DNA of 29,784 nucleotides from a virus. Position 1 is the stretch's first letter. Every line of letters begins with the position of its first letter. The position numbers were made by a program, and so were the translations under genes. The stretch lies in IMG/VR virus record IMGVR_UViG_3300031339_000034, positions 1 through 29,784 of that record; one strand, 5' to 3'. A model generated the notes under the pieces. That model ran no database searches and was not told the origin of the DNA. It was given only the letters and a program-made list of their open reading frames with translations. Below, piece by piece: positions 21,947 through 28,045 of this stretch.

Positions 21947-23574
21947 TATGATTGTGTTCCTATAATTGTTCCATCCGTATTGCTAGAAGGGTCAGAGCCA
22001 ACTTTTAATCTTAATTTATCTGAGTCGTCAGCCCAAATTCGGATAGGGCCAAGCCTTAAAGTACCTGTATCCCATCTTCCACCCGTATTAGGTCCACCAA
22101 TTATAACCGGCCCACCGTCATTTTTTGACAGGTTAGTATAGCCTGTATCTCTTATTTCTGTTGTTTCAGTCGAAGTGCCTTTTAAATAAGCAATAATTCG
22201 GGTTAATCCTGTTGTAGCTCCTGAGCTTCTAAAAAATCTTAATATCTGGTTACCAGTTAAATCAGGTGAATTTACATCAGTATCACAAAAAACATCTGAG
22301 CCGTTATTAGTAACAGCCGATACTTTGTGTATTTCAGTACCTATTGTCTTAGAGACTATAACATTCGGGAGCGCATTATATGTATCAGGGTCAAACGGAC
22401 ATACAAACTTAGTAGTTTGCGAATCGCTATATGAGTTAAAATGGTATGGTTCTTGTGTTACCCACAATCCATCGGTGCCAACTTCTGTTTTATAAGTGTG
22501 AACTTCACCATCGAAACTAAATTTATCAGCCGATGCGCCTATTAATATGTCATAGTTTACTCCGCTAGAAATAGGGTTTGCAACTGATAAATAACCGTTA
22601 GTGTTAGATGAGCAATTAACAAACGCACTACCCTTACCTAATATTTGTATACCATCACAGTAGTTATCTTGTGCTTCACCGCTTGTATATTGGTTAAATG
22701 CGCCTTGGTCACGCCAACCTCCTAAAGTATTTACAGTACGCCCATTCCAAATAGCCTTGAAGTTAGAAAACTTATTTGCTGACCCACTTGCATACAATCC
22801 AGTCGAGCCATTTTTTTCTGCATAGAAGTTACTATATATACCATCACTACTTCTAATCCAAATGCCATTCAAACCATTATGAGCCGCCGCAAAGTTATCC
22901 ATAAATATTTGAAAGTTTGACGGTTGAGAATATATACCATTGCCAGCGCAATTGCCTACTGCAAAATCAGTTGCGATTACTTGCTTATAACTGTATGGAG
23001 CGTTTTGTGCCTTGTCGTTAAAGGGAGAAAAACTGTTTCCGTTATTGCCAACACCTTCAACAAAGAATATTCCATTGCCCGATGTGTTATTATCCTTGTT
23101 ACCATTAAATGTTATTTTACTCCACCCAGATTGGTCACAAGATGCAGGGACGGTCATTAAATCTTCGTTTGCACCATCGTTTAATTTTATGTGCGCCGAA
23201 CCCCTAGATTCACCTTCTATTAAAATCATTGTGGGTAATGAAAACCCGTCCATTCTGTGTATGCCGCTTGGGAAATAAACCTTCCCACCTAATGTATCGC
23301 CAACTATTGATAGCCTAGATAAAGCCGATGCCATTGCCACTGTATTATCAAAAGCATCATCACCTTTACCACCGAATTTCAATATATTAGCGACTCCGTT
23401 AATCTGTAATTTAGCAACCCGACTATTAACAAAAGTGACATCACCAGATAACGCAGTATAGCCCTCAGCTTGTAAAATATAATTTGCGTTTGCTCTTTCT
23501 CTACATACAAACTCGGAGCCTGTTAAAGTTTGAATGCTTTCAGATAATTCTAAAAATGTTTCGTAAATCTTCAT
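21946..23574 (-). CDS. Tailspike with parallel beta-helix (putative polysaccharide depolymerase), 542 aa
   Basis: Receptor-binding, probably enzymatic. After a short N-terminal part (residues 1-60), the pectate-lyase-type entry motif FGGKGDDAFDNTVAMASAL (residues 67-85) is followed by GGKVYFPSGIHRM (96-108), the hallmark start of a right-handed beta-helix. The following 300 residues are rich in N, G and short strands (GNGIFF, NGIWIRSSDGIYSNFYAEKN, STGLYASGSANKFSNF). The C-terminal 120 residues form a different beta domain (trimerisation or carbohydrate binding). It has no long anchor domain, so it probably docks on the 601-aa fibre upstream. Catalytic residues cannot be assigned without a structure model. 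Confidence 0.85.
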   Translation of the reverse strand: MKIYETFLELSESIQTLTGSEFVCRERANANYILQAEGYTALSGDVTFVNSRVAKLQINGVANILKFGGKGDDAFDNTVAMASALSRLSIVGDTLGGKVYFPSGIHRMDGFSLPTMILIEGESRGSAHIKLNDGANEDLMTVPASCDQSGWSKITFNGNKDNNTSGNGIFFVEGVGNNGNSFSPFNDKAQNAPYSYKQVIATDFAVGNCAGNGIYSQPSNFQIFMDNFAAAHNGLNGIWIRSSDGIYSNFYAEKNGSTGLYASGSANKFSNFKAIWNGRTVNTLGGWRDQGAFNQYTSGEAQDNYCDGIQILGKGSAFVNCSSNTNGYLSVANPISSGVNYDILIGASADKFSFDGEVHTYKTEVGTDGLWVTQEPYHFNSYSDSQTTKFVCPFDPDTYNALPNVIVSKTIGTEIHKVSAVTNNGSDVFCDTDVNSPDLTGNQILRFFRSSGATTGLTRIIAYLKGTSTETTEIRDTGYTNLSKNDGGPVIIGGPNTGGRWDTGTLRLGPIRIWADDSDKLRLKVGSDPSSNTDGTIIGTQS

Positions 23575-23583
23575 TATTTTTCC

Positions 23584-25389
23584 TTACGTAAAATCAATGT
23601 TCTTAATAACTTCAGAATTTGGGTTACCTAAAGTAATCCAATACTCTCTACTAATTAACGGGCCAGTAACTCTAAAAACAAACTTTTCGCCATCAAGGGA
23701 TTTAACCTCAATTAAGTTATTTGCTGTTGGCACATTATTTCCTGCAACATCAATTAAAGATTGGTTATCACCTGCAAACGAATATGTATTTAAGTCATTA
23801 TCTCTCATCATATCAATAACTCTTACAAGGCTAGTTAAAGTCGTATCCCTTAATGGGTATGTTAAACTTGTGTTGCTAAAATGTATTTCACGTTGAAAAT
23901 TTATAGAGTTAAAAGGATATTTAAAACCAACAGAAGTATTTGAAAAATCTACTCTGTTTCCTTCTTTTGAAAGTTCTTTTGTTAAAGCAATTCCTTTTCC
24001 TGCAAATGCAGGGTCTGTCCATTCAGCAATGTCTAAAGTTACCCAAGTAGCATAAACATTTCCATTGGTGCTGTAGATACCTTCGTTTTCAATTAAAGTG
24101 CAAACATGGTCTACCATGCTTTCAAACTTTTCTTTAAACAAATCAGGTCTACTAAGATACTGCCCTACTAGATTACCATTAGCTGTTAGTTGATTAATTC
24201 CTTGATAAAACTGTGGTTCTTGAACATCGTCATCATCTTTAAATATTCTGCCTGCCGCTACTAAAAACTCTCCATCATGGAATGTTATACCTTGTTGCTT
24301 AACGTATCTCGTAATGTTACTGCCAAAAGTACCAGTGGCTTCAATTGGAAAAACAATTCTTCCGTACTCGTTAAAGTCTACGTCGAAGACACCATATATG
24401 TGCCTATGACCTGTTCCCTTATAAGTGTCAAATCTTTTTGATACGTAGAAAAATTCTCCATCATATGTCATGTTAGTATGCGCCTCTACATCATAGCGGT
24501 CTGCAATAGCTACCGTTGATTTAGAAACTGGGAGAATCGTTATGTTCATCCTATAGACTTCGTGAGTATCCCTACTAATAGCGTAAAGGTAACGAGTAGT
24601 GCCTACGTAACGAATTACTAAAGACTCCCATGTAAGCTCTTCTGAGGTAAATACGGTTTTAAATGCGCCAGTAGCTAAATTATAAACCCAAAACCAAATC
24701 CAATTGTTTGAGCCGTCTGCTGGCCCTCTTGAAATAATAACTTCATTGGCCTCTTCGTCTACTGCTATACCTGATGGGTATATCTGGCTGTATCCATATT
24801 CTGTTTCTAATTCTTTATAAACATCGTCTGAAAAAGCAAATTCGTGAACTAGACTTCTTTTGTAAAAATCTTCAGAACGTGACTCTTTTAAAATACTTTC
24901 ACTGCCCCCTACAGGCTCCGCAGACACTCCTGTAAGTGTTGAACCCGTAGGGAAGGTGTTAGTAAGTTGTATTTCTGTTTCACCAACAACGGTGTAATCA
25001 ATATCTTTTACTAGCCTACCTATGTCTACGCCTTTGTCTGTAATAAAGAAAGCGGCTTGTACTGCAAAGATAGATATAAACACTACGTTAACTTGTGTGT
25101 TAGTTAGTTCTATACTCTCTTCGTTAAAAACAAAGTCAGCAGGTGTTGATGGGTCGAAGGCAATCTTCTGTACATCTTGAAGGCGCATAAGGTCGTTAGG
25201 AAAAAGAGGAGAAGGTGAGTTTAGAATACGCTTTGAGTTCATATCTAAATCAGTTAACATGGAGTTGTTTTCACCACTATCTAAAACTTTCTTAACGACT
25301 TTGTTTTTTAGTTCTTCTTGTATGATTTCAAAGTTATCATTTATGATAGTTCTGTTAAATCCACTACCTATGTTATTTAATGTTGTCAT
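23584..25389 (-). CDS. Tail fibre protein with virion-anchor N terminus (601 aa)
   Basis: First protein gene of the leftward operon. Residues 1-75 carry a fibre-start pattern: FNRTIINDNFEIIQEELKNK, then MLTDLDMNSKRILN and PNDLMRLQDVQ, as in many podovirus tail fibres that attach to the tail hub. Residues about 90-150 form a beta domain (FVFNEESIELTNTQVNVVFI). From about 190 to 480 the sequence has repeated W/Y/F-rich strands (IAVDEEANEVIISRGP, YLYAISRDTHEVYRMN, FFYVSKRFDTYKG), suggesting a beta-propeller-like receptor domain instead of a beta-helix. No intramolecular chaperone was recognised. The tRNA-Pro gene is 33 bases upstream. Confidence 0.82.
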   Translation of the reverse strand: MTTLNNIGSGFNRTIINDNFEIIQEELKNKVVKKVLDSGENNSMLTDLDMNSKRILNSPSPLFPNDLMRLQDVQKIAFDPSTPADFVFNEESIELTNTQVNVVFISIFAVQAAFFITDKGVDIGRLVKDIDYTVVGETEIQLTNTFPTGSTLTGVSAEPVGGSESILKESRSEDFYKRSLVHEFAFSDDVYKELETEYGYSQIYPSGIAVDEEANEVIISRGPADGSNNWIWFWVYNLATGAFKTVFTSEELTWESLVIRYVGTTRYLYAISRDTHEVYRMNITILPVSKSTVAIADRYDVEAHTNMTYDGEFFYVSKRFDTYKGTGHRHIYGVFDVDFNEYGRIVFPIEATGTFGSNITRYVKQQGITFHDGEFLVAAGRIFKDDDDVQEPQFYQGINQLTANGNLVGQYLSRPDLFKEKFESMVDHVCTLIENEGIYSTNGNVYATWVTLDIAEWTDPAFAGKGIALTKELSKEGNRVDFSNTSVGFKYPFNSINFQREIHFSNTSLTYPLRDTTLTSLVRVIDMMRDNDLNTYSFAGDNQSLIDVAGNNVPTANNLIEVKSLDGEKFVFRVTGPLISREYWITLGNPNSEVIKNIDFT

Positions 25390-25500: not shown

Positions 25501-26375
25501 TTTGAATACTTGTAAATACATTATTGCATTTATAAATACTCTTTTAGCTTTTACTACGTAAAACCGATTACTCGTCCGTAGGACTCTTACACTATCCAGA
25601 GGAACTTTGGGGAGGGCTTACGGTTTTCTTAGGATTATATTGAGAAAATATGATGGTGCTATATGCAATATAGAACAACCCCTTGACCCCCCTTGTCCCC
25701 CGAGAGAATATATTCCTGTGGTGTTACATTATAACATAGCATTAGTCAGGATTATTTATTATTGGCATGGGAATTGCATAATGTTATGTTATACAATAAT
25801 GAATTGGTGTAATGCTCTATCGAGATACACACCACATCATATTGATTGCATCCCCTTGTTATTGCTAGGTTATATAGTAACAGTGCTATCGCACGACCTG
25901 ACTATTTATCTAGTAGTATATAGTATCTACATAATGGTACGTATTAGGATATGTATCCTAGTGTATATGGTATGCTTTATATAGGCTTGATGTGCCTGTT
26001 TTGACCTATGTTTCACAGGATAATGAATAGATATGCACTGTTCTATTCACTTTCAAACTTTTAATGCGGGTTGTAGCCTTGTTGTACTGCATACTTATGC
26101 AATGTTTCACAAAACAGACCTCATTCTATGGGCCTACATGGCACTGTACAGCGTTTTAATGGCTTATGAGGCCAGTGTATACCTTGTCATTGCATATGCT
26201 GTTAGGATGCGATACAAGCATTTTCGACTATTTGAGATATTGATTTAATTTGCCCTTTATTGGCATGTTGGCATGGTCTATGCTACGCATGCGTTCCTTA
26301 TGTATTTTAGAGTGGCATTGGTAGCCTTATATATAGGTAATGATTTTAGGCTTATTCAATTAATTTGAAATAAGA
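25501..26375. other. Gene-poor AT-rich region, left half
   Basis: No convincing gene: reading frames here lack a ribosome-binding site or a normal start. Visible structures are a C-rich patch at 25676-25702, the palindrome TAGGATA-TG-TATCCTA at 25945-25960, the palindrome ACGCATGCGT near 26285, and several TTGCAT hexamers with 17-base spacers to -10-like hexamers on the plus strand. Best read as the host-RNA-polymerase promoter region between divergent operons. Confidence 0.55.
25774..25802 (+). promoter_or_regulatory. Candidate sigma-70-type promoter
   Basis: TTGCAT, 17-base AT-rich spacer, TAATGA on the plus strand, inside the gene-poor region and pointing to the boxA modules and early genes. 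Matches to consensus are 4/6 and 4/6, so this is only a candidate. Confidence 0.3.
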
Positions 26376-26418
26376 TTGAACTATCTATGATTGTTGTACT
26401 CTTATCTATGTAAGCAAG
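26376..26418 (+). repeat. Conserved upstream block, unit 1 (TTGAAC...AGCAAG)
   Basis: TTGAAC, then exactly 37 bases ending in TATGTAAGCAAG. Equivalent blocks occur at 26540-26582 and 26706-26747. An A/T-rich stretch with TTGAAA lies just upstream. Possibly a promoter with its initial transcribed bases, although the -35/-10 spacing is not canonical. Confidence 0.7.
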
Positions 26419-26428
26419 AGGTCTACAC

Positions 26429-26444
26429 GTTCTTTAACAATTTG
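26429..26444 (+). promoter_or_regulatory. rRNA-type boxA site 1
   Basis: GTTCTTTAACAATTTG. It differs from the E. coli rrn boxA core (GCTCTTTAACAATTTA) at two bases. In rRNA operons boxA RNA binds NusB-S10 and starts antitermination. It lies ten bases after upstream block 1, and its last base starts a 13-bp inverted repeat. Confidence 0.8.
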
Positions 26445-26513
26445 ATTATTCACCATGTAACCAGTTAACAGGTTAAAGGTATTAGCGTACTGAATGTGGG
26501 ATGGTGAATAATC
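26444..26513 (+). repeat. Inverted repeat (stem) of unit 1
   Basis: Perfect 13-bp stem GATTATTCACCAT / ATGGTGAATAATC enclosing 44 bases, in which TAACC/GGTTA forms a smaller hairpin. AATTT/AAATT may extend it past a bulge. Arm positions are 26444-26456 and 26501-26513. A stem directly after boxA recalls rRNA leader and spacer processing stems. Confidence 0.85.
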
Positions 26514-26539
26514 TGATTTGAAATTAGTTTGAAATTAAA

Positions 26540-26582
26540 TTGAACTTATTTCGAATCCAGTTGACTAAGTATTGTAAGCAAG
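26540..26582 (+). repeat. Conserved upstream block, unit 2
   Basis: TTGAAC plus 37 bases ending TATTGTAAGCAAG, 164 bp downstream of block 1. Preceded by AT-rich ATTAGTTTGAAATTAAA. Confidence 0.7.
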
Positions 26583-26590
26583 TTTTACAC

Positions 26591-26606
26591 GTTCTTTAAA
26601 AATTCG
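26591..26606 (+). promoter_or_regulatory. rRNA-type boxA site 2 (most divergent)
   Basis: GTTCTTTAAAAATTCG, eight bases after upstream block 2. The CTTTAA core is kept; AACAATTT became AAAAATTC, so its 3' part also forms the left stem arm. Confidence 0.65.
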
Positions 26607-26691
26607 GTTTGTTGTATGTATTGGTCACAAGGTGACTATATGATACTTAGCTTAGGCGGTACACAATGCAGTAACAAACCTCATTCGAATT
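26601..26691 (+). repeat. Inverted repeat (stem) of unit 2
   Basis: AATTC/GAATT plus GGTTTGTT/AACAAACC (13 pairs in total, with a six-base bulge on the right side). Arms are 26601-26613 and 26673-26691. The loop contains the small hairpin GTCAC-AAG-GTGAC. Confidence 0.8.
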
Positions 26692-26705
26692 AATTTTTAA
26701 TTAGT

Positions 26706-26747
26706 TTGAACTTTATTGAAAGTGTGACGTCTTACTTATGTAGCAAG
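26706..26747 (+). repeat. Conserved upstream block, unit 3
   Basis: TTGAAC plus 36 bases ending TATGTAGCAAG, 166 bp downstream of block 2 and one base shorter. AT-rich TTTTTAATTAG precedes it. Confidence 0.7.
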
Positions 26748-26754
26748 TAGTAAC

Positions 26755-26770
26755 GCTCTTTAACAATTTG
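26755..26770 (+). promoter_or_regulatory. rRNA-type boxA site 3
   Basis: GCTCTTTAACAATTTG, identical to the E. coli rrn boxA core except for the last base, seven bases after upstream block 3. Its 3' end forms part of the left arm of the next stem. Confidence 0.85.
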
Positions 26771-27029
26771 GCAAGTGAAGTAGAGAAAGTAACATTATGT
26801 TACAGTTCACAATATAGTTGCGCCCATTGCATTGACATGCTAGGCAAGGTCAATGACACAAGTGACAAGTATTTGAAAATGACATAATGGCACAAAACAC
26901 ACGGATAACTCATAGGGCTATAAATCCCCTGTGAGGTACGCCGTTAAAGTGCAGATATTTTATATCCTTTTAGCCTACTAGAATCATTCCGTCCTTTGGA
27001 TGGTGTGACCAATTACAGCTTGCCAATTG
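26764..27029 (+). ncRNA. Candidate 266-nt stem-closed RNA domain of unit 3
   Basis: CAATTTGGCAAG (26764-26775) pairs with CTTGCCAATTG (27019-27029), 11 pairs with one bulged T, enclosing 243 bases. Internal hairpins are CATTGAC/GTCAATG (near 26829-26854), CTCATAGGG/CCCCTGTGAG (near 26909-26934) and CCGTCC-TTT-GGATGG (near 26989-27003). No reading frame of note. The right arm ends one base before boxA 4. It could be a processed small RNA or a structural leader; transcription has not been shown. Confidence 0.45.
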
Positions 27030-27030
27030 T

Positions 27031-27046
27031 GCTCTTTAACAATTTA
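27031..27046 (+). promoter_or_regulatory. rRNA-type boxA site 4 (perfect)
   Basis: TGCTCTTTAACAATTTAT, as in the E. coli rrn boxA. It has no TTGAAC block of its own and follows the unit 3 stem directly, so it is probably on the same transcript. It is the last boxA before the first rightward gene (start 27316). Confidence 0.88.
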
Positions 27047-27054
27047 TACGAATG

Positions 27055-27140
27055 CGATACTAGAATATAGAAACGAGAGTACTTTCTTTTTTATTCCTAG
27101 TAATGACTTAGAAACAAGGGCAGTTTTATGTCTAGTATCG
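27055..27140 (+). repeat. Inverted repeat (stem) of unit 4
   Basis: Perfect 10-bp stem CGATACTAGA / TCTAGTATCG (arms 27055-27064 and 27131-27140), enclosing 66 bases, starting eight bases after boxA 4. Confidence 0.82.
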
Positions 27141-27166
27141 GGATGGTTTTTAAATAGCTTCGAGTA

Positions 27167-27273
27167 ACCTTGACAAGGTGAATTTAGCTAGTCAGACCGT
27201 AAAAATGACAATTAAAAAACAAGTGAATAACTCAATAGCATTCTTAATTCAGAGTGCTATTTATGATATTTAT
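27167..27273 (+). promoter_or_regulatory. Leader structures before the first early gene
   Basis: The palindrome ACCTTG-A-CAAGGT at 27167-27179 may be a protein-binding site or small hairpin. Further on, AATAGCA / TGCTATT (27234-27240, 27255-27261), extended by outer GAATAA / TTTATTC, forms a hairpin 43 bases before the start codon at 27316. Neither is followed by a T run. Confidence 0.4.
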
Positions 27274-27315: not shown

Positions 27316-27957
27316 ATGAATGCAATCAATAAAGATATACAAACCTTCGAACAAATAGAAGCGAGCATTACTGTATTAGCAAATGCCGAGGTGATTACTA
27401 ACAAGATACTAGGTGAACTATCGCGCTCTGTTTTGCTGTATATGCTAGACAATAACGACGATGTACGTCCAGTGAACCGTCTACTTGGCACTGATGAAAA
27501 TGGCAAGTTTTTACTAACACCTATGAATTGGCGTTTAGCTTGCCAGTATTTCTATAAATTCGTACCGTTTAAGTCGAACTGGAATGAAACTCAAGCTTTC
27601 ATTGTTAGTGCCAAAGGCAAGCGTGAAGCATTAGTGTTTAGCAAGAAAGACAAGAAAGTCTTTGACACAAAAGCTATCGCTATCTACACTTGGCTTGCCC
27701 TTGAAACCAATGACATTTGGACGTTTTCTGATACTGTCGAAGTCAAGGCCAAAGACATTGACTATTCTAAGCGTATAACCTCTGCTGTTGAGTCAGCTAT
27801 TGATAAAGGTGGTTTGAGTATATCCGATGTTATGCTTGCAATGTTATCAAGTGACATGCTCACAGCCGATATGGTTATCGAAGCTATGGGCGAAATAGAA
27901 GAAATCCCTCTTGAAGGTGAAACTTTAGAAGTTGATAATAAAGACCCAAACTTCTAA
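27316..27957 (+). CDS. First rightward gene, putative early protein (213 aa)
   Basis: I chose ATG 27316 (MNAINKDIQTFEQIEASITV); an in-frame GTG at 27304 would add four residues. Soluble, mixed alpha/beta, with NRLLGTDENGKFLLTPMNWR near residues 54-73 and an acidic tail (GEIEEIPLEGETLEVDNKDP). No motif recognised. It is the only gene between the boxA/stem array and a strong hairpin, so the antitermination-type region appears to serve at least this transcript. By position it is a host-takeover or early regulatory gene, but its role is unknown. Confidence 0.8.
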   Translation: MNAINKDIQTFEQIEASITVLANAEVITNKILGELSRSVLLYMLDNNDDVRPVNRLLGTDENGKFLLTPMNWRLACQYFYKFVPFKSNWNETQAFIVSAKGKREALVFSKKDKKVFDTKAIAIYTWLALETNDIWTFSDTVEVKAKDIDYSKRITSAVESAIDKGGLSISDVMLAMLSSDMLTADMVIEAMGEIEEIPLEGETLEVDNKDPNF

Positions 27958-27962
27958 GTAAT

Positions 27963-28014
27963 CTTACAATGCTTTGCTGTAAGTAATAAGGGGGTAATTT
28001 TATCTTACCCCCTT
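27963..28014 (+). terminator. Double hairpin after the first early gene
   Basis: CTTACA-(9)-TGTAAG at 27963-27983 is followed by the perfect 10-bp stem AAGGGGGTAA / TTACCCCCTT at 27988-28014 (loop TTTTATC). The following bases GTATCTATTCTCTTT are only moderately T-rich, so termination is likely but may be partial. It would be a fitting target for boxA-dependent antitermination. Confidence 0.65.
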
Positions 28015-28045
28015 GTATCTATTCTCTTTCACTACGTTCAAACGA

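Follow-up and report, generated by a model that had tools for sequence, protein, structure and literature searches.

The window, as we call the whole stretch of DNA analysed, comprises an entire IMG/VR record of 29,784 bases and is a fragment of a marine phage. Its terminase is 65-71% identical to the terminases of Vibrio phage ICP2 and oyster-associated Zobellviridae, and judged from the agreement of its terminase and virion genes it is a fragment of a Zobellviridae phage related to ICP2 and CW02. The virion genes are read leftward, up to position 25389, and the early genes rightward, from about 27316; between them lie 1.9 kb of almost entirely untranslated DNA, one end of which carries a tRNA-Pro. 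Homologues of the first early gene begin the rightward gene set in other Zobellviridae. When the DNA of this region was searched against phage records only the tRNA-Pro was matched, so homologous regions were reached through proteins. Two further elements of the region were noted. One stretch at 25641-25705 (TGAGAAAATAT...ACCCCCTTGACCCCCC) resembles a stretch in the same intergenic region of L010, whose counterpart is also similar to L011, L012 and L014, and may belong to the leftward operon. In addition, a terminator-like hairpin at 27234-27261 lies between the boxA array described below and the first early gene, and both it and the similar hairpin directly after that gene are possible targets of read-through control.

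The preliminary description of this DNA had reported four boxA sites of the rRNA type within about 620 bases, and this was borne out (Table 1). Exactly four copies of the boxA core YTCTTTAAMA are present in the window when both strands are counted (26430, 26592, 26756 and 27032), all of them on the plus strand, and the four cores span 26430-27041, or about 620 nt of leader, on the early-gene strand only. Shuffled versions of the window held a mean of 0.76 cores and none of 100 shuffles reached four, while a Poisson estimate puts the chance of four within 612 nt on one strand at about 1.5e-10. All four sites fit GYTCTTTAANA exactly, which is the gamma-proteobacterial boxA consensus published in PMC5725501. 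The first start codon lies about 270 nt past boxA 4. In an Rfam scan of the window and six relatives no family reached its gathering score at the boxA modules; the scan also returned a sub-threshold match to the skipping-rope RNA at 22120-22237 on the minus strand (28.5 bits, gathering score 36.7), inside a coding region.

Table 1. Features of the boxA array and its surroundings (positions are those of the window).
Feature	Sequence	Position	Strand	Remark
AT-rich TTTGAA-repeat block before module 1		26358..26382	+	
boxA 1	CGTTCTTTAACAATTT	26428..26443	+	reads TGCTCTTTAACAATTT in close relative L004
Stem 1, 5' arm	GATTATTCACCAT	26444..26456	+	
Stem 1, 3' arm	ATGGTGAATAATC	26501..26513	+	
TTTGAA repeats before module 2		26511..26546	+	11-nt spacing
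Weak boxB-like hairpin before boxA 2	TGTAAG-caagt-TTTACA	26573..26589	+	p=0.12
boxA 2	CGTTCTTTAAAAATTC	26590..26605	+	
Stem 2, 5' arm	GGTTTGTTGT	26606..26615	+	
Stem 2, 3' arm	GTAACAAACC	26671..26680	+	
TTTGAA-repeat block before module 3		26688..26712	+	
Weak boxB-like hairpin before boxA 3	TTACTT-atgtagc-AAGTAG	26732..26750	+	p=0.13
boxA 3	CGCTCTTTAACAATTT	26754..26769	+	
Long-range stem 3, 5' arm	TTGGCAAGT	26768..26776	+	kept in L004
Long-range stem 3, 3' arm	GCTTGCCAA	27018..27026	+	3 nt before boxA 4
boxA 4	TGCTCTTTAACAATTT	27030..27045	+	
Stem 4, 5' arm	CGATACTAGA	27055..27064	+	CACTGCTAGA in L004
Stem 4, 3' arm	TCTAGTATCG	27131..27140	+	TCTAGCAGTG in L004
First early gene		27316..27957	+	function unassigned
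Intrinsic-terminator-like hairpin		27986..28016	+	directly 3' of first early gene

Two of the helices that follow the boxA sites are significant alone, namely those of module 1 (13 bp, p=0.005) and module 4 (10 bp, p=0.015), and those of module 2 (10 pairs, p=0.095) and module 3 (9 pairs around a 241-nt loop, p=0.08) are marginal when taken singly. The four combined give p=3.5e-4. An inverted repeat of 10-13 pairs had been described after every boxA; this is correct for modules 1, 2 and 4, but the helix of module 3 is long-range and has 9 pairs. A local hairpin was also considered for module 3, where the best local inverted repeat has 5 bp (p=0.92), and the long-range helix was preferred. A short recurrent sequence, TGCTAGGCA/TGCTAGGT, was also seen inside modules of different phages (26838-26846 in the window, and in L006, L008 and L011) and may form a small hairpin.

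L004, a near relative whose first-gene protein is 93% identical to that of the window, gave evidence of covariation. Stem 4 differs by six substitutions, all of which fall in three pairs and each of which is exactly compensated (CGATACTAGA/TCTAGTATCG in the window versus CACTGCTAGA/TCTAGCAGTG in L004). The stems of modules 1-3 are almost invariant between the two, and the stretch 26440-26780 carries one substitution in about 340 nt versus many in the flanks. Compensatory change in a near relative is thus seen for stem 4 alone among the four. In boxA 1, CGTTCTTTAACA in the window has become TGCTCTTTAACA in L004, which is still within the consensus.

Arrays of this kind are a property of the family. 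Tandem boxA sites were found at the same place in CW02 (3), PQ867848 (3), PQ867851 (3), PQ867842 (3), PQ867839 (2) and ICP2 (2), with one or two sites elsewhere, so that boxA near the early genes of related phages, which the preliminary description had proposed to look for, is present in many Zobellviridae. A survey of 38 Zobellviridae terminase loci in IMG/VR, allowing up to one mismatch in boxA, placed it upstream of the terminase 31 times on the early-gene strand and 4 times on the other strand, and downstream 3 times, with the downstream stretch searched being the longer. At least one boxA was present in 16 of the 38 contigs, many of which are too short to reach the region, and some contigs of the survey had no recognisable boxA though long enough to cover it. 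Two Zobellviridae without a clear boxA, L015 and L016, have a conserved 1.5-kb leader in common, part of which (L016:5096-5132) resembles window positions 27128-27166 after stem 4.

The association of boxA with a following helix was evaluated over 56 boxA modules from about 28 phages (the window, Zobellviridae, SP6/T7-like and T5-like phages, including K1-5, LUZ100, J8-65 and AG74) by comparing the best ungapped helix whose 5' strand starts at most 14 nt after the boxA core with dinucleotide-preserving shuffles. A helix with p<=0.05 was found in 31 of the 56 modules versus 4.2% of control positions taken from these regions (Fisher 2.4e-23). Because the modules are not fully independent by descent this pooled p is optimistic, though the contrast with the controls stands. 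Fifteen significant helices have a next boxA; in 7 of them the helix end falls at -1 to +2 nt relative to this boxA, and in another 6 it falls 13-44 nt ahead of it, which leaves room for a hairpin or promoter. In nine phages the SP6/T7-like helix has 21 bp, 98.4% of them paired, with two-sided changes at 6 of the 21 pairs versus 0-1 in slid controls.

Promoters and hairpins ahead of boxA were enriched as well. A sigma70-type promoter precedes boxA at p<=0.05 in 19 of 56 modules (Fisher 1e-12), and in several phages the last boxA of the series has no promoter of its own, as would follow if transcription arrives there by read-through. Hairpins immediately ahead of boxA are likewise enriched over 55 modules (Fisher 2e-8), examples being GACC-TTCG-GGTC in LUZ100 and GAAGC-gataca-GCTTC in CW02. 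For the window itself, sigma70 consensus scans found no promoter above chance before any module (p 0.54-0.97), and none of the boxB-like hairpins before its boxA sites was individually significant (p=0.12 to 1.0). Modules 1-3 of the window are instead preceded by TTTGAA repeats without a sigma70 consensus, which are possibly a protein-binding array or part of an unusual promoter, and the AT-rich block before module 1 may act as a promoter or UP-like element. The pattern TTGACA followed by boxA also finds prophage-looking sequences without a long helix, and a promoter with boxA alone is therefore not specific. In prophage-looking IMG/VR contigs (L120, L134-L136, L163, L175, L180 and similar ones) a hairpin, TTAACCaatacGGTTAA or TTACCaatctGGTAA, stands immediately before a consensus boxA and after TTGACA, so that the hairpin-then-boxA order of rrn operons occurs in temperate phages too.

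The 11-nt spacing of the TTTGAA repeats, at a place where late and early operons diverge, could also point to repeats that act as DNA, for example as an origin or a regulator-binding array, with a boxA similarity that arose by chance. The strand bias, the exact boxA consensus in unrelated phages and the compensatory pair changes all argue against this, the covariation in particular, and we find this explanation hardly credible.

A like arrangement is found in many lytic phages, T7 among them. Phage T7 (L109) carries a perfect boxA, CGCTCTTTAACAATCT, at 812-827, which is 62 nt past the A3 start (750) and ahead of gene 0.3 (925), and the boxA is followed by a helix at 836-845/862-871, which we take to be the region of RNase III site R0.3. 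The boxA of LUZ100 at 647 lies 41 nt beyond the end (606) of promoter P2, which was annotated from transcription-start mapping by ONT-cappable-seq in a paper that does not mention boxA. In K1-5 and T7-like phages boxA is about 60-110 nt ahead of an early start codon. No paper linking boxA to T7, SP6-like or Zobellviridae leaders was found in the open-access literature, and since the search covered open-access papers only, the novelty of the leader is provisional.

That distance to the start codon would suit control as in suhB, in which Nus factors bound to boxA would act as a timer by keeping the following gene from being translated and favouring termination by Rho. The suhB precedent, in which a boxA near the start codon can have both effects (PMC5725501), also counts against antitermination. 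However, some 270 nt separate boxA 4 of the window from the first start codon, and the tandem boxA sites lie in untranslated RNA, and we give this reading very little credence.

The early regions also hold a nearly invariant element of 29 nt, GACAGTCAAGGATAAAGACGTTAAAACCC, near early sigma70 promoters of Zobellviridae, T7-like, T5-like and other phages (L005:4188-4216, L010:2903-2931, L020:449-477, L021:845-873, L023:1502-1530 and others). There are 28 non-redundant copies, several of them inside outer stems of varying sequence, and five copies lie 70-76 nt after boxA. Exact matches numbered one in bacterial genomes and 20 in IMG/VR. It had no Rfam match in the six loci scanned and is absent from the window, and it is possibly a new phage RNA motif.

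The helices could mean that these leaders are mainly RNA-processing cassettes, in which helix formation and RNase III cutting yield processed early mRNAs or excised small RNAs and boxA is mainly a folding chaperone and not an antitermination signal. The helices are the best-conserved part after boxA, and in T7 the helix after boxA falls in the presumed R0.3 region. PMC6614801 describes the rrn complex as keeping 5' regions close to the exit tunnel so that they can pair, and it has been argued, which counts against antitermination, that the main role of Nus factors at rRNA is RNA folding and not protection from Rho (PMC5725501). However, processing is compatible with an antitermination leader and not exclusive of it, and the RNA between the helix arms is not conserved between phages apart from a C-element in some. 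As the main function it seems unlikely to us.

The data are best explained by an rrn-type antitermination leader, and we consider it probable that the array, consisting of boxA and a helix like that between rRNA leader and trailer, loads NusB-S10 onto host RNA polymerase. The rRNA operons of E. coli have boxB, boxA and boxC in that order after the promoter and a second time ahead of 23S; boxA alone is enough for factor recruitment, and boxC is part of the 5' strand of the helix between leader and trailer, a strand that boxA tethering is proposed to hold for pairing (PMC10250234). SuhB and the Nus factors counter Rho, and can lower intrinsic termination in vitro (PMC6614801). In order, spacing and repetition the phage leaders agree with this anatomy. 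By analogy, we infer that the rightward early operon would be transcribed with the window array as its leader, and that this leader would work like that of pre-rRNA. Host RNA polymerase would start upstream and transcribe boxA, and binding of NusB-S10, then of NusA, NusG and SuhB, would turn it into an rrn-type antitermination complex. Because boxA and the polymerase would stay linked, the helix's 5' strand would be kept at the RNA exit and would pair once the 3' strand emerged, in a manner resembling the pairing of boxC with the 16S trailer. Antitermination would shield both the untranslated leader of about 900 nt and the series of short early genes from Rho, the closed helices would be candidate RNase III sites, and each repeat of the module would reload the complex, as the boxA of the 16S leader and that of the 16S-23S spacer do. 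Against this explanation speak the lack of a promoter or boxB-like hairpin above chance in the window, the marginal helices of modules 2 and 3, and the Zobellviridae contigs in which boxA was not recognised.

The earlier proposal that the phage copies the rRNA leader is thus supported comparatively, by the placement of the arrays, the excess of helices, the 3' strands that end at the next boxA, and the rrn order of promoter and boxB-like hairpin in many relatives. It had also been proposed that this happens without an N or Q protein of the phage. Nine Zobellviridae relatives contain neither a Q-type antiterminator (PF03589, PF06530; 0/9) nor a T7-type RNA polymerase, which for these relatives agrees with the part concerning Q and makes host polymerase with host factors the economical reading. 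An N protein may still be present, since N-like proteins are short and variable enough to escape profiles and the window is only part of a phage genome.

Up to four tandem boxA sites near early promoters in many phages might alternatively serve as a sponge, in which abundant boxA RNA would draw NusB-S10 off the rRNA operons and so reduce rRNA synthesis in the host. Neither helices that end at the next boxA nor a boxA near each promoter would be required for this, many phages have only one to three copies, and S10 is an abundant protein. We regard a sponge as highly improbable.

A broader proposal is that pre-rRNA mimicry is a general early strategy of lytic gamma-proteobacterial phages, T7 included, in which a series of boxA-helix domains would switch host polymerase into its rrn antitermination form as infection begins, with no phage protein involved, and the helices would free RNA domains with functions of their own. 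We put this forward tentatively, as possible rather than probable. In the textbook view, phage antitermination requires a phage protein (N or Q) or the put RNA. An rrn-type leader in phages without a T7-type polymerase, together with the perfect boxA in the early leader of T7, would mean that widely studied lytic phages rely on the host ribosomal transcription complex from the first minute. Whether early expression in T7- and SP6-like phages is set by the state of NusB, SuhB or RNase III can thereby be tested, and the leader modules offer small model RNAs for how boxA helps distant strands pair.

Several known systems share part of this design. The put RNA of HK022 is also a phage leader RNA that works without a phage antiterminator protein, but it acts directly on polymerase and without boxA. 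The T7 early leader (A1-A3, R0.3) likewise has its perfect boxA after A3 and then a helix before gene 0.3, but a single boxA is found there in the stretch searched, and T7 has an RNA polymerase of its own, of a type lacking in the nine Zobellviridae records. In lambdoid nut sites, too, the boxA of an early phage transcript loads NusB-S10 on the host polymerase (PMC10250234), but there boxA is followed by boxB and phage N protein is used, whereas hairpins of the phage leaders, where found, precede boxA; what follows each window site is a helix with a long loop (44-241 nt), with no short-loop nut-type boxB hairpin within about 10 nt. The suhB mRNA has a Nus-factor-bound boxA outside rRNA as well, but it is a single repressive site near the start codon, for which the covered sections of PMC5725501 report no flanking helices. 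The E. coli rrn system (boxB-boxA-boxC, rrnTAC) shares the boxA sequence including the flanking AATTT, repetition of the module in one transcript, a boxB-like hairpin before boxA in many relatives, and a helix whose 5' strand comes just after boxA and whose 3' strand comes before the next boxA set. The consensus of rrn boxC is UCUGUGUGGG. The phage helices differ from those of rrn in enclosing 20-250 nt of unrelated RNA or a tiny ORF and not rRNA, and the phage leader has up to four sets and sits in the leader of a phage mRNA.
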